Positions 42,470-48,836 of a stretch of 56,120 nt of DNA are shown piece by piece; position 1 is the first letter of the stretch, and each line of letters opens with the position of its first letter. The stretch is taken from positions 1 to 56,120 of the forward strand of contig JAFGMN010000256.1 in NCBI GenBank assembly GCA_016927515.1, given 5' to 3'. The stretch is from a candidate division CSSED10-310 bacterium (lineage in GTDB: Bacteria > CSSED10-310). Position numbers and translations under genes: made by a program. Under the pieces are notes generated by a model. The model was not told the DNA's origin. It did no database searches and worked only from the letters and a program-made list of their open reading frames with translations.

Positions 42470-42892
42470 TTACATGCCGTAGGGGTTGCCGGGCATAACA
42501 ATCGTGTAGCCGGGCTGACCGCCGCCGGTGGCAACCAGGTTCGCGAACACCGCGCCCCACAGATAGATCTCGTCTTCGGTGGCCTGGATGTCATAGTTTC
42601 CGAAACCGTAGTTGTCGCCGATATCATACCAAGCTTCAGCGGTGCCGGGCTGCCAGGCAGCGCCAGCATTCACGGTGGCGGTGGTGGAGATCAGCCAGTT
42701 GCCGGTTGCGCCGTCGAACAGGTTGATGGTAACGGTGGCGGGCTGGGTGCCGGCGTTAACGATTGACCAGAAACCCTGGATCGAGAAGCCATGCTGCCAG
42801 AAGGGGAAAGGAACTGTTTCATCGGTCAAAGCCACATTGGCCATCAGGCCGAACACCAGAACCATCGCGATCGCTACGAATGCTTTCTTCAT
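42470..42892 (-). CDS. Small secreted beta-rich protein (FPFW family)
   Basis: A 140-residue exported protein. A signal peptide (MKKAFVAIAMVLVFGLMANV) ends near ALT. The mature part begins DETVPFPFWQHG and has many Thr/Val/Ala strands and aromatic residues, then a GGGQPGYTIVMPGNPYG ending. I recognise the FPFWQxG...W...N pattern from uncharacterised exported proteins but no named family. AAGGAG precedes the ATG, and a strong terminator follows. A signal peptide, strong ribosome site and terminator suggest an abundant surface or secreted product. Its neighbours are secreted M14/dockerin proteins. Confidence 0.8.
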   Translation of the reverse strand: MKKAFVAIAMVLVFGLMANVALTDETVPFPFWQHGFSIQGFWSIVNAGTQPATVTINLFDGATGNWLISTTATVNAGAAWQPGTAEAWYDIGDNYGFGNYDIQATEDEIYLWGAVFANLVATGGGQPGYTIVMPGNPYGM

Positions 42893-43033
42893 TTTGAAAC
42901 TCCTTTTAATAAGGTGATTAAAAATCTGAGGGTTTCTCCCTCTCTCGCACCGTATAAACCGGTGAGGTTCCCAATGGTTCCCTAAAAAAAATCTTTTTCC
43001 GCGACCCCCCCGTCCTTTGTCTTTTCTACCCCG

Positions 43034-43067
43034 AAAAAAAGAACCTCCGGTCTTGGACCGGAGGTTC
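43034..43067 (-). terminator. Rho-independent terminator after the active M14 gene
   Basis: A 12-base perfect stem (43041-43052 with 43056-43067, loop TTG) is followed on the minus strand by a T7 run (43040-43034). It ends the transcript of the M14 peptidase gene, 39 bases past its stop. Confidence 0.93.
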
Positions 43068-43105
43068 CATCCTGCATCTTCAATCCGAAACATTCAGAGG
43101 CTGAT

Positions 43106-45655
43106 TTACAGCGGATCTACACAGCTTTGGCTTCCCAGCGCCGTCATGAAAATCTGCTGTGCATCACCTGCTGTGATGCTCTCATCGCCGTTACAGTCAG
43201 CACTGCAGGCCTCTTGATACGAGGGCGAATATGAACCCAGAGCGATCTGAAACGCCAGTTGGGCATCACCGGCCGTAATGGCGTCATCGTCGTTGACATC
43301 ACCGTTGTTCACGCATTCATTCGGAGTCCAGGTCGGAACCGGGGTCGGCGTCACTTCAGGCAGCGATTTTCCGCAAATCGAAATGTCATCGATGTAGTAA
43401 CCGTAATCGACAACCGACGTGTCGGTTTCCAGCCGCCATCGCACGTAGACCGCCGGCTGACCATCAGCCACTCCCGAAATGTCAAAAATCTGTTCCGTCC
43501 AGACCGTATCTTGCGCATAACCGGTCCAAACCACTGTCCAAGTCTGATTGTCAGAGGAAACCTCAACATATGCTTCATCCCAGTTTTCTTCATTCTGGAG
43601 CCATCGGTAAAAATGCAGTTCCGTATCCGTAATCGTCGAACAGTCGAACGGGGTCGACGTGAGCTTGTATGTCGCATTGTTGCTGTAATTACCATCAAGG
43701 TTCGTTCCGTAACAGGTTGTTCCGCTGTAAGGTGAAGAGGGACCAGCAACAGGCTGGCCAAACTCCCAGCCATTGGACCCACTGTTTTCAATGGTGTAAC
43801 CGGGATCGCTGTCCAACGTTTCCAGATACAACGGGCATTGCCAGACATACCGGGAAATCACGACTCGAATCACGCTGGATTCGGCGCACAACACCTGATC
43901 CGCTGAAAAGGTTACCATCAATTCCGCAACATATTCATCGGGTGCAGATGGCGATGCCTGAATCTGGAAATGAGGCAACTGTGTTGTCCCCGTTCCGCCA
44001 TCAGGAATGTTTCCGATGACGGCACTCCCATCCAAAATGACAATATATGGATCCGATGATGTGAGTGCTGCCTGAACATTCGTCGTCGAACCAATCGAAG
44101 TAGCAGTCAACGCCAGATTGGCGGTTTCACCCGGATCGAGAACCCCATCGTCATCCCCCTGCGTATCAATAATCTGCTGATTGACGGGGAAAACGCCGTA
44201 ACTACCGGTTGGAACCAGCATAATGTCCTGATCGAGCTGGCTGCTCCCCACCATCACCGGCAGAACCGTGTCACCGTACCCGGCTGCACTGGCGACCAAC
44301 GTATAATCACCGGACACAACGGGCCACCAGTACCGGCCGAATGCATCGGTTACACGGGGAAGTTCGTCGGCTGTCAGCGGAATTTCTTGAAGACCGAATT
44401 CGGCACCTTCGATCGGCACCCCCGTGCAGGCATCGAGAATGTGCCCCGTTAGGAGCGGTCCTTCCATCCGATTCAGCAGATACTGCCATCCGGCGCGGTT
44501 ACGTTGCACGGTCGAATCTCGCCACTGATTGTAATTCGGAAGAAAACCCTGTGACATCGAATTCACTTCGATCACGTAGGCGAAAGTTCCCAGATCCGTA
44601 TAATACCAATCGATATCACCGCCGTCGGTTGCATACAGCAGTTCCCAACACGTGCCTGGAGAATATCCCATGGTGCCGCTGTCGCATTCGATGACCGAGG
44701 CGATACCCTGTCCGATCGCCGACACCGCGTCATGATCGGGAGTTATCTCACCATCGCAGCCGTACGGGTAGATCACCAGTTCGGAATAGGAATGATAGGA
44801 GATGTCGAAAACGGGTTTGATTGTCGATGCAAACGTGATCATATTCGTTACGCAGTAACTTTCGGCGGGGAACTGCCCCCGGTACGTATCGCTGGACGGG
44901 CTTCCGGAACTGCCGTTGCAGGAACCCCAGAACGACGGGTAATTCCGATTGGGATCGATTCCGTAATAGGATGATCCTGACGGTGGATCGTGGCGATCTT
45001 TCCGCCAATCATCGTTATTGGTGAAAACGTATTCCACGCCGTCAAGATTTACCTGGGGAACAACCCAGATTTCATACGTATCTACCCAGTGCGTGACCTG
45101 CGGATCCGTTCCGTAGTTCGTCAGCAGATAATCGACGATATCCGTCGTAATCTCCGCCGTCATCACCTCCCGGGCATGATGTTGACCGTTAAACAGAATC
45201 GCCAGTTCATCTTCATCGGTATCGGCGTTGTCGGAAATTTTAATCGCGATCATTGACCGTCCCTGTTCCGTATCACCGATCGTGACCAGTTGTGTCAAAT
45301 CCGGGTACGTATCGGCGAGTTGAGTGATCAGGGCAGTCATTTCCGCCGGTTGCAGATACTGCGGATCGACTTTCACGCCATCGCCGGGCACTCGGATCAC
45401 GTCGACCGTATACCGTTTTTCCAGATCCAGCAGCGTTTCTTCCGAAACAACCAGACCGATCCGGAATGTCTCCCGATCCACTCCCGCCAGATCGAGATGC
45501 ATCGTCTGAACGTCTTTCAGGGCCGCCGCAAAAGCTTCCTTATCAGGACAAACCAATTGCACCTGATACCGATTTTCCGATTCCGTCGCAGCCACACCAG
45601 CAACAGAAAGCGCGAGAATAAACGCAAGCGATATCACCAACACTGTCTTTGTCAT
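43106..45655 (-). CDS. Secreted M14 zinc carboxypeptidase with C-terminal dockerin-like domain
   Basis: An 849-residue exported protein. A signal peptide ends near residue 23, and a propeptide-like region runs to about 95. The M14 domain (about 100-400) keeps zinc ligands His160 and Glu163 (GQHHAREVMT) and His288 (ISYHSYS), substrate residues Asn236-Arg237 (DPNRNY) and catalytic Glu363 (VIEVNS). A CarboxypepD_reg-like domain (about 405-485), Ig-like parts and a jellyroll domain follow. After a Pro/Thr linker, residues 780-849 carry two Ca-binding repeats of dockerin type I (GDVNDDDAITAGDAQ and ADCNGDESITAGDAQ). It should cleave C-terminal residues from peptides outside the cell while docked to a partner. 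SD AAGGGGGAG is clear. Confidence 0.9.
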   Translation of the reverse strand: MTKTVLVISLAFILALSVAGVAATESENRYQVQLVCPDKEAFAAALKDVQTMHLDLAGVDRETFRIGLVVSEETLLDLEKRYTVDVIRVPGDGVKVDPQYLQPAEMTALITQLADTYPDLTQLVTIGDTEQGRSMIAIKISDNADTDEDELAILFNGQHHAREVMTAEITTDIVDYLLTNYGTDPQVTHWVDTYEIWVVPQVNLDGVEYVFTNNDDWRKDRHDPPSGSSYYGIDPNRNYPSFWGSCNGSSGSPSSDTYRGQFPAESYCVTNMITFASTIKPVFDISYHSYSELVIYPYGCDGEITPDHDAVSAIGQGIASVIECDSGTMGYSPGTCWELLYATDGGDIDWYYTDLGTFAYVIEVNSMSQGFLPNYNQWRDSTVQRNRAGWQYLLNRMEGPLLTGHILDACTGVPIEGAEFGLQEIPLTADELPRVTDAFGRYWWPVVSGDYTLVASAAGYGDTVLPVMVGSSQLDQDIMLVPTGSYGVFPVNQQIIDTQGDDDGVLDPGETANLALTATSIGSTTNVQAALTSSDPYIVILDGSAVIGNIPDGGTGTTQLPHFQIQASPSAPDEYVAELMVTFSADQVLCAESSVIRVVISRYVWQCPLYLETLDSDPGYTIENSGSNGWEFGQPVAGPSSPYSGTTCYGTNLDGNYSNNATYKLTSTPFDCSTITDTELHFYRWLQNEENWDEAYVEVSSDNQTWTVVWTGYAQDTVWTEQIFDISGVADGQPAVYVRWRLETDTSVVDYGYYIDDISICGKSLPEVTPTPVPTWTPNECVNNGDVNDDDAITAGDAQLAFQIALGSYSPSYQEACSADCNGDESITAGDAQQIFMTALGSQSCVDPL

Positions 45656-45746
45656 TTTCTCCCCCTTGATTCAGAAATAGTGATTCCGGGCATGCACCGG
45701 ACTTGTTTCGGGCATTACCTTTGCAAAAAACGGGCCGAAAATGGAA

Positions 45747-45778
45747 CAGGCTTCCGATTTTCAATTACCGGAAGCCTG
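45747..45778 (-). terminator. Perfect 10-base hairpin, possible terminator
   Basis: CAGGCTTCCG (45747-45756) and CGGAAGCCTG (45769-45778) form a perfect stem with a 12-base loop, 44 bases past the stop of the cohesin-bearing M14 gene. No T run follows directly on the minus strand (a T6 comes about 16 bases later), so it may be a weak terminator or an RNA-stability element. Confidence 0.45.
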
Positions 45779-45821
45779 CTGATCCGTTATTTTCTGATAT
45801 CACTCAGATGTCAACAGGGCG

Positions 45822-48800
45822 CTATTGTACATCATCAAACAGAGCCATTACTTGAATTCGGGGTGTCTCCCGATTCAGGGTGGAAAAGCCAGCTATCGAA
45901 TCGAACACAAGATGGGCAATGATGCCGTGCGACCCGGATGGGATACCGGCTTGATCCGGTGTTCCCACGCTGTAACCGCCGATGCGGAGTCGATTTCCAG
46001 GGAGTTCCTGAGAATCAAACTCCACCCAGCCTGGATCCAGATCACCGGGATATGCATCGATCAGACGCAAACAGGATGCATCGTAAGCCAGTTCGATCAG
46101 GAATGCATCAATGGGTTTGTGGTTATCGGATATCCGGACTTCGACATTCCACTGGTTTCCATTTGGCCGCACCGAACCCACGGTGACCGTTCTCTCCTCT
46201 GCAGCGAGTTCTTTCCTGATTCCCCTTCCCATGATTCGAGGTAACGGATCCAGGCAAGACGAGCTTCCCAGGGCAGTCAGGAAAACACCCTGCGCATCTC
46301 CGGCCGTCACTTCGCTGTCGCCGTTGCAATCCGCAGCGCAGAACTCGACCTGAGTCGGCGTATACGCACCCAGTGCGATCAGGAACGTGGTTTGTGCATC
46401 TCCGGCCGTCACCTCGCCATCAGCGTTGACATCGCCATGGTGCAGGCATCCCGATGTCGAGGTGGGTGTCGGTGAGGGAGTGCTGGTCGGCGGCAAGGTC
46501 GGCGTTGGTTGAACCTGTCCAGCTCCCTCCGCCAGTCCACAGATCCAAACGTCATCGATGTAATGACCGGCCTGGCTGATCGACGAGTCCGCCCGGACAT
46601 CGAAGCGGAGTTCGACCTGCGGTTCATCATCCGCCCATGCGGATATATCCAGTTCCCGCCATTGCCATCCACCGGAACTGCCGTCTTCATCCAGGATGGT
46701 CACCCAGGATCCTCCGTCACTCCTGATCCGGACCCGGGCGTGATCATAGGAATTTTCAACTTCGTAATACTGAGCAAACTTCAGTGCCACTTCCGTGACA
46801 TTGGAACAATCGATGGGAGGAGATGTCAGGCATAGTGTCCAGTTGTTATCGTAATTCCCGGCCAGTCCCGTGCCATAGACGTATAATCCCGTATAGGCTC
46901 CGTCAGGGCCCACCTGCGGTTCACCGAATTCCCAGTTGTTATAGGGTCCCGGCGGAGAACCGGACGTGGGGTACGATGTGATTTCCCATCCCGGATCGGC
47001 ATTGAAGTTTTGTTCCCAGAATGGACACATGTAGTTGATCGAAAACACGCGGACAAACGTCGTGTCCTCCGGGTCGCAGAGTGTCTGATCACATGAAAAT
47101 GTTACGGTCAGGTACGCTTGATGATACTCCGGAGTCCCCGCCGCTGCCGTAACCCGAAACCGATTGGCCGGACAATATGCGCCCCCTCCGGATGGAAGGT
47201 CTACCCATGCTGCACTGTTGTCGGTGATCGTGATATAGGGATCCGTTGTCGACAAGATTCCCGTGATTCCCGATACAGGGGCTCCCGGAGCCCAGATGGC
47301 CATATTCAGATAGGCCGTTTCCCCCGGATCCAACTGACCATCGTTGTCACCGGCCTGATCCTCGATCACCACCGCCCAGACTGCCAGACCGGGTTCGTCG
47401 GTGGGCAACAACCCGATATCGTAAGTGATCGGACCGGTCCCAAACAGCACGGGCACACGTCGCGAAAGATAACCGTCCGCCTCAACTATCAAATTCAATG
47501 TGCCAGCGTGTCCGACTGCCGTATAGAAGCCGGTCACCGGGTTGTTTTGCCGCGGCGATTCCTTTGGCGTCAGAGGATATTCCTCAAAGTAATACGTCGC
47601 CTGAACCGGCTGACCGGTGCAGGCGTCGGTGATCGTCCCTTGCACGATCGGTCCGGTTTCATAGAGATCCAGCACGTTCTGCCAGCCCGCCCGGTTTCGG
47701 GTAACCGTCGTGTTTCGGATCGAATACGCCGGGTAATAACTCGAGGCATTGACCTCCACCGCCATCGCCAAGCTACCAAACCCGGCATAAAAATAATCCG
47801 TCTCGTTACCATCATTGTTATACAGAATCTGCCACCATGCTCCGCTGTCATATCCATATCCGCCATCTTCCCGTTGAATCACCGCTCCCATGGAGCCAGC
47901 GAAACTGGACAGAATTCCAGCTTCCGGCGCTGATTCCCCCCAGCAGCCATACGGATACATGATCAACTCGTTAAAACTGTGATACGAGATCACCGCAGTG
48001 AAGGCATGATTCTGAGCCAGCGTCATGATTCCCTGGATCTCCGGCTCCGATCCGGGAGCAGTCCCGCGATAGCCACTGGAATTGGGATCCGATGAAGATC
48101 CAAAACACGCTCCCCAGTCGACATCGTAATTATGCCCCAGCGCAACGCCAAACACATCCCCACCCAACTCACGCCGATTCTTGATCCAATACTGATCCGT
48201 CGACCAACAATACGCGCTGCCGTCAGGATTCAGCATCGGAACAATCCAGATCTGCCACGAATTGACCCAATTCGTGACATCCGGGTTCGATCCGTAATTT
48301 TCCGCCAGGTAGATCGCCATATCCATCGCAATCTCCGTACTCATGATCTCCCGCGCTTCATGCAAACCCAAGACGAGAACTTCCGGTTCCTCCTCCTGAA
48401 CCAGAACATTGTCGGATATTTTCACCGCCCAAACCGTCCGGTTCTCCGCCGTAACCGCCAACTCATACCGCTTGACAATCGACGGGTAGGTCGTTTGCAG
48501 ATTGTTCAGCACATTCATGACCTCCGCATAATCATAATACTGAGGATCAATATCCCTATTACTTTCGACATCCTCTGCGGAACGGACCTCCGTCCAAGAC
48601 AATCCCATCTCATCCAGGATCTGCCGACCGTCGTCCGTCATCAACACATCCACGGAAAAGCGTTCCCGATCCAAACCAATCCGATCCACATGGTCACGGA
48701 TCGCCGGACCATGCTCCTTCATCACCATCTGATAATCCTTCAGCGATATCTCGGCAACACATCGCGACGATGCTTCCACCGAAATCCCAAACCCCATTCC

Positions 48801-48836
48801 AATCAGCAATCCAATTAGACACGTCAGTTTTCTCAT
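45822..48836 (-). CDS. Secreted M14-like pseudo-peptidase with dockerin-like and cohesin-like domains
   Basis: A 1004-residue exported paralog of the M14 protein downstream. The signal peptide ends near residue 22. In the M14 domain, the first zinc His is Glu160 (GLHEAREIM), and the substrate pair Asn-Arg is Gly234-His235 (VALGHNYD); Glu163, His286 and Glu361 remain. This predicts a weak or lost peptidase. A regulatory-like domain, Ig-like and jellyroll parts follow. After a Pro/Thr linker, residues about 797-865 form a dockerin-like pair (GDVNADGEVTAGDAQ). About 885-1004 resembles a cohesin (KPIDAFLIELAYDASCLRL, RLRIGGYS, HGIIAHLVFD). ATG 48836 follows AGGGGA. The cohesin call is from pattern and needs a profile search. 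Confidence 0.8.
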   Translation of the reverse strand: MRKLTCLIGLLIGMGFGISVEASSRCVAEISLKDYQMVMKEHGPAIRDHVDRIGLDRERFSVDVLMTDDGRQILDEMGLSWTEVRSAEDVESNRDIDPQYYDYAEVMNVLNNLQTTYPSIVKRYELAVTAENRTVWAVKISDNVLVQEEEPEVLVLGLHEAREIMSTEIAMDMAIYLAENYGSNPDVTNWVNSWQIWIVPMLNPDGSAYCWSTDQYWIKNRRELGGDVFGVALGHNYDVDWGACFGSSSDPNSSGYRGTAPGSEPEIQGIMTLAQNHAFTAVISYHSFNELIMYPYGCWGESAPEAGILSSFAGSMGAVIQREDGGYGYDSGAWWQILYNNDGNETDYFYAGFGSLAMAVEVNASSYYPAYSIRNTTVTRNRAGWQNVLDLYETGPIVQGTITDACTGQPVQATYYFEEYPLTPKESPRQNNPVTGFYTAVGHAGTLNLIVEADGYLSRRVPVLFGTGPITYDIGLLPTDEPGLAVWAVVIEDQAGDNDGQLDPGETAYLNMAIWAPGAPVSGITGILSTTDPYITITDNSAAWVDLPSGGGAYCPANRFRVTAAAGTPEYHQAYLTVTFSCDQTLCDPEDTTFVRVFSINYMCPFWEQNFNADPGWEITSYPTSGSPPGPYNNWEFGEPQVGPDGAYTGLYVYGTGLAGNYDNNWTLCLTSPPIDCSNVTEVALKFAQYYEVENSYDHARVRIRSDGGSWVTILDEDGSSGGWQWRELDISAWADDEPQVELRFDVRADSSISQAGHYIDDVWICGLAEGAGQVQPTPTLPPTSTPSPTPTSTSGCLHHGDVNADGEVTAGDAQTTFLIALGAYTPTQVEFCAADCNGDSEVTAGDAQGVFLTALGSSSCLDPLPRIMGRGIRKELAAEERTVTVGSVRPNGNQWNVEVRISDNHKPIDAFLIELAYDASCLRLIDAYPGDLDPGWVEFDSQELPGNRLRIGGYSVGTPDQAGIPSGSHGIIAHLVFDSIAGFSTLNRETPRIQVMALFDDVQ

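Follow-up and report, generated by a model that had tools for sequence, protein, structure and literature searches.

A putative M14 pseudopeptidase carrying a dockerin-cohesin tail in a peptidase-rich cohesin-dockerin system of candidate phylum CSSED10-310

The planctosome, proposed for the Nemodlikiaceae (Planctomycetes), is a hypothetical peptide-degrading cohesin-dockerin complex in which an adaptor combines a dockerin with a cohesin and an M14 carboxypeptidase is among the cargo (PMC6461901). The cellulosome-like complex of Ca. Stygibacter (Cloacimonadota) is, like the planctosome, a genome-based hypothesis (PMC8542988, PMC6461901). In the accessible part of its description it comprises dockerin-tagged gingipain-like C25 and S8 peptidases and a multi-cohesin scaffoldin, as well as GH18 and GH57 enzymes among the cargo; neither a pseudopeptidase nor an enzyme-borne dockerin-cohesin tail is described in that part (PMC8542988). 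Catalytically dead members of the M14 family (CPXM1, CPXM2, AEBP1, CPD-III, and Ecm14) are secreted, and the characterised ones stem from animals or yeast (PMC11266112).

Here, we describe two tandem M14 genes from an uncultured spring-sediment bacterium of candidate phylum CSSED10-310 (G000; 3,457,392 bases in 360 contigs), one of which encodes a putative pseudopeptidase with its own dockerin and cohesin. In the planctosome the adaptor bears an HYR domain and M14 is a bound enzyme (PMC6461901), whereas here the dead M14 itself carries the dockerin-cohesin unit, C25 peptidases lead the cargo, and a relative possesses a five-cohesin scaffoldin. Judged by domain content alone, the planctosome-like combination of dockerin-tagged peptidases and a dockerin-cohesin adaptor is present, with its assembly being a prediction. 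Type I dockerins, cohesins, and scaffoldin-like proteins, including multi-cohesin ones (G002 L247, G000 C261), are shared with clostridial cellulosomes. However, glycoside hydrolases are few instead of forming the main cargo (the 41 dockerin proteins scanned in G000 gave a single GH44 and a single GH18 match), and the dockerins have four cysteines and other residues at the recognition positions. Replacement of Arg145 by His is common to CPXM1, Ecm14, and the dead clade described here, yet His69 is retained in every M14 pseudopeptidase that PMC11266112 tabulates, whereas this bacterial clade has lost it together with Arg127. The finding varies known themes in two respects, namely a bacterial M14 pseudopeptidase clade without the zinc-binding His and the recruitment of such a protein to carry a dockerin and a cohesin.

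Two tandem M14 proteins and a conserved dead clade

The window, i.e., the whole stretch of 56,120 nucleotides that was analysed (contig C16), encodes both M14 proteins on the same strand with 166 bp between them (Table 1). Their common domain order runs from a signal-peptide-like start through a propeptide-like region, the M14 domain, and beta domains to a PT linker and a dockerin; in the 849-residue protein, a carboxypeptidase regulatory-like domain follows M14 and precedes the beta and MAM-like region. Both match Pfam PF00246 (8e-64 and 1e-53) and align along the whole M14 domain with carboxypeptidase T (1obr). The dockerin repeats that the original prediction had proposed for both proteins were recovered as the duplicated Ca-binding F-hand repeats of Dockerin type I, at 28.4 and 27.7 bits against a Pfam cut-off of 22.9 bits, while an NCBIfam search returned no informative name. 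The length of 1004 residues is counted from an ATG; an upstream GTG would yield 1019. We infer that this protein is secreted. Beside the active gene lies a small secreted-type protein (w42470; 42470-43093, minus strand) without a Pfam match, which probably starts at an internal MKKAFVAIAM and adjoins the active M14 in the sister genus G001, too (47% identity).

Table 1. Features of the two tandem M14 genes (positions in the window)
Feature	Positions	Strand	Remarks
Active M14 carboxypeptidase, 849 aa	43106..45655	-	C-terminal dockerin
Dockerin of active copy	43154..43303	-	two Ca loops, C-terminus
M14 domain of active copy	44522..45340	-	zinc, Arg127, Asn-Arg, Tyr, and Glu residues all present
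Predicted M14 pseudopeptidase, 1004 aa	45822..48836	-	dockerin and C-terminal cohesin
C-terminal cohesin, tail type	45825..46190	-	about 12 profile positions shorter at its end than scaffoldin cohesins
Dockerin unit of 1004-aa protein	46245..46448	-	four conserved cysteines, two D-x-N-x-D...T..D loops; Pfam core 46290-46439
MAM-like domain of 1004-aa protein	46545..46823	-	Pfam InhA-like_MAM, 2.7e-7
Pseudo-M14 domain	47709..48515	-	Pfam, 1obr alignment
Gly234-His235 replacing Asn144-Arg145	48132..48137	-	Gly/Ala-His across the clade
Ile218 (ATC) replacing CPA Arg127 (CPT Arg129)	48183..48185	-	Ile in 4/4 clade members
Glu160 (GAA) replacing zinc His69	48357..48359	-	Gln in three relatives
Signal-peptide-like N-terminus of 1004-aa protein MRKLTCLIGLLIGMGFGISVEAS	48768..48836	-	judged by eye

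Aligned to 1obr, the 849-residue protein retains H160, E163, R218, N236-R237, H288, Y341, and E363 and is, by these residues, an intact M14 carboxypeptidase. In the 1004-residue protein, the zinc ligands H69, E72, and H196 read E, E, and H, and R127, N144, R145, and E270 read I, G, H, and E; Glu163, His286, Tyr339, and Glu361 are retained as the equivalents of E72, H196, Y248, and E270. The original prediction of two tandem paralogs of these lengths, one with a complete active site and one with Glu160 and Gly-His beside the retained Glu163, His286, and Glu361, agrees with the coordinates, the alignment, and the codons, but it had missed the replacement of Arg127, the Arg of the W-R-K-N-R motif (CPT numbering verified). 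The 1004-residue protein is best described as an M14 pseudopeptidase that should be catalytically dead, and ordinary carboxypeptidase action appears very unlikely because Arg127, Asn144, and Arg145 are lost. An AF2 model of its M14 domain, built on a five-row alignment, reached a mean pLDDT of 49 and was not used.

The 1004-residue protein belongs to a dead clade of four members from three genera of the phylum. The contig scan for relatives covered the best 80 of 232, and more distant dead M14 copies may exist elsewhere. The others are encoded on contig C184 of the same genome (L062), in G004 (L038), and in G003 (L039); L067 and L068 are second handles for L038 and L039. Pseudo-M14 relatives were drawn from Zod_Metabat.252 and.419, which belong to this phylum. 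In each of the three proteins, His69 is replaced by Gln, Arg127 by Ile, Arg145 by His, and Asn144 by Gly or Ala, and the G003 protein additionally has Gln for Glu270; the His ligand is removed by H69E and H69Q alike. As the substitutions are common to three further genes, they are not due to chance. In the other M14 loci that were scored, which stem from many phyla, the zinc His and the Asn-Arg pair are present whenever these positions align. The dead clade is monophyletic (support 100/100, stem 0.89), and its dN amounts to 0.30-0.44 with dS saturated. The dead M14 proteins are maintained under purifying selection and are no pseudogenes.

The tail cohesin and the genome-wide cohesin-dockerin system

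An additional cohesin-like domain had been predicted at the end of the second protein but not the first. The 1004-residue protein does carry such a tail domain, although its sequence alone gave no match to Pfam PF00963 (Cohesin), and it is family profiles and the modelled fold that speak for its identity. When 16 related domains of the phylum were combined into a profile (A2), it matched nothing but cohesins in the PDB (best 6kg8, 9e-10), as did one of nine dockerin-linked tails alone (A6, 2e-4), and a profile built from other cohesins without any tail domain detected the window copy at 51.7 bits. The dockerin-cohesin unit was modelled with AF2 at a mean pLDDT of 81, and the best 28 Foldseek matches were all cohesin-containing chains, including 6kgf, 5nrm, 1g1k, and 2xdh from Archaeoglobus, with TM values of about 0.47-0.65 against single-cohesin targets. 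Eight strands are predicted in the tail; the classical cohesin fold has nine. By profile and predicted fold, the tail domain is clearly a cohesin. A carbohydrate-binding module and a type IX secretion tail were also considered and dropped, as cohesins led the profile and fold matches. Tail cohesins end near position 119 of the 131 profile positions, short of the scaffoldin type, and cluster separately from scaffoldin cohesins (2 label changes versus 7.8 when shuffled), with weak branch support. Because of this separate cluster and the missing last stretch, they may have another partner than scaffoldin cohesins do.

About nine further proteins or fragments from three genera, several of them peptidases, bear the same dockerin-cohesin tail. 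The carriers include C25-type proteins (G000 C354 and C10, G002 C9 and C4; C354 confirmed as C25, the other three assigned from sequence and cargo tallies), an M36-like protein (G001 C146, class judged by eye), a cohesin protein (G000 C253), a 605-residue protein (G000 C261), and two fragments (G001 C237 and C249). The other three pseudo-M14 proteins (G003, G004, and C184) have neither dockerin nor cohesin, so an adaptor function would be particular to the window copy. Their PT linker leads into a different C-terminal domain, which has VTFGY or VEFGY at its end and resembles the end of the five-cohesin scaffoldin. Since three relatives end in this other domain, domain exchange is the probable origin of the tail on the window copy, the direction being read from three against one. 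The VTFGY-type domain, for which no name was found in Pfam or NCBIfam, recurs in other dead M14s, CarboxypepD_reg-rich proteins, and scaffoldins (L250, L251, L067, L247, and L156).

The count of dockerin proteins that the original prediction had called for gave 44 Dockerin_1 matches in G000, accompanied by 15 cohesins detected with the local profile. Counted in the same way, G001 has 43 dockerins and 30 cohesins, G002 has 21 and 10, G004 has 11 and 6, and G003 has a single dockerin and no cohesin. Among 63 aligned dockerins of G000 and G002, 54 are located at the C-terminus, the Ca-loop positions (Asp, Asn/Asp, Thr, Asp) are conserved, and the recognition-loop positions are near-uniform in both repeats (A-G/A in TAGDAQ); in clostridial dockerins, it is these positions that mediate recognition. 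Four cysteines stand at fixed positions (1, 37, 41, and 67) in 61 of the 63, and the pattern is present in both window dockerins (46245-46448 and 43106-43310). Their fixed positions suggest that these dockerins are clasped by disulfides.

Two scaffoldin-like proteins stand out, one with five cohesins and a VTFGY-type C-terminal domain (L247; G002:C3:324500-328700) and one with three cohesins, a hydrophobic C-terminus, and an RRR end (L157; G000:C261), the last two of which are possibly a sorting or anchoring signal. The dockerin cargo of G000 comprised six C25, four M14 (the dead copy being one of them), two S8, one C1, one PAD, one GH44, and one GH18 match in the 41 proteins scanned, and that of G002 five C25, two S8, one M14, one astacin, and one C13 match in 19. 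As many dockerin proteins have no recognised catalytic domain, the term peptidase-rich is used here for a cargo in which peptidases outnumber any other recognised class. One dockerin protein of G000 (alignment A4) has a Porphyromonas-type peptidyl-arginine deiminase domain, alongside the gingipain-like C25 enzymes. As far as domain content can tell, G000 has the parts of an extracellular cohesin-dockerin system. Outside the phylum, numerous M14 relatives are encoded in the single-contig genome G065 (C1), where the tail profile also matches cohesins in tandem; this genome possibly has a similar peptidase system.

Possible function of the pseudopeptidase

We consider it only just probable that the 1004-residue protein is a secreted M14 pseudopeptidase that was retained for binding and acts as a chain-extending adaptor in a peptidase-rich cohesin-dockerin system. 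Its dockerin would attach it to cohesins of a system at the cell surface in which peptidases make up most of the recognised cargo, and its tail cohesin would offer a further site for a dockerin-bearing protein, thereby extending the chain. The dead M14 and MAM-like domains would bind either substrate or some other partner at the surface. The adjacent active M14 would be one possible client among about 40 and no dedicated one.

Persisting peptidase activity, by way of a modified metal site of Glu160, Glu163, and His286 or of some other chemistry, would agree with the retained equivalents of E72, H196, Y248, and E270. Glutamate can bind zinc. We nevertheless hold this to be very improbable, given that three relatives have Gln at the His69 position, one has also exchanged E270 for Gln, and Arg127, Asn144, and Arg145 are gone in 4/4 members. 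The lost catalytic residues would fit a decaying duplicate without function, which is hardly credible in view of four long intact frames with 54-59% identity, purifying selection, and branch tips of 0.24-0.64, comparable to the 0.23-0.86 of active paralogs. Another explanation accepts binding through the dockerin alone: the tail would keep the cohesin fold without binding dockerins and would have a stabilising or secretion-related role. The fast-evolving cluster formed by the tail cohesins, their early end near position 119, and the missing Pfam Cohesin match of the window copy are all consistent with this. We regard it as unlikely, though well worth considering, as the core positions (DAF, G, P, W, F, and DD) are conserved in the tail family and the tail recurs on unrelated enzymes in three genera, while 54 of the 63 dockerin proteins end in a dockerin and manage without it.

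The original prediction had instead proposed that the dead copy serves its active neighbour, or itself, as scaffold or receptor. Such a dedicated role, be it as receptor, as scaffold, or as regulator, or else self-polymerisation, is suggested by the close tandem on one strand with a dockerin on the active and a cohesin on the dead copy, and there are known cases of pseudopeptidases regulating active relatives (PMC11266112). Synteny speaks against it. In the sister genus G001, w42470, the active M14, w49006, and w50124 all have homologs (47, 61, 42, and 62% identity) with no dead M14 between them, and no active M14 adjoins the dead paralog in G003, G004, or contig C184. The dead M14 of G003 and G004 adjoins instead a protein of similar length ending in a VTFGY-type domain, which in G003 proved CarboxypepD_reg-rich on scan; a C25 peptidase is also adjacent there. 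The tandem pair was therefore dropped as a conserved unit, and with it the main support for a dedicated pair is removed. The near-uniform recognition positions across the 63 dockerins likewise argue against a private cohesin-dockerin pair, and an identical tail type sits on about nine other proteins. We thus consider a dedicated pair improbable, and the original prediction is supported in part, for the domains and residues but not for this pairing.

Returning to the adaptor reading, a more far-reaching proposal is that the pseudopeptidase serves as an adaptor scaffoldin, with the dead M14 holding peptide substrate or chain ends in a surface-bound, chain-extending peptidase complex that is built by enzyme-borne dockerin-cohesin tails and not by a separate scaffoldin alone. 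This is tentative, and we rate it as rather unlikely in its full form.

The bacterial clade without the zinc-binding His69 would be an independent case of a peptidase fold reused for binding. Its genome context adds to an under-described class, the peptidase-centred cohesin-dockerin systems, in which dockerin-cohesin tails could chain enzymes together without a long scaffoldin.
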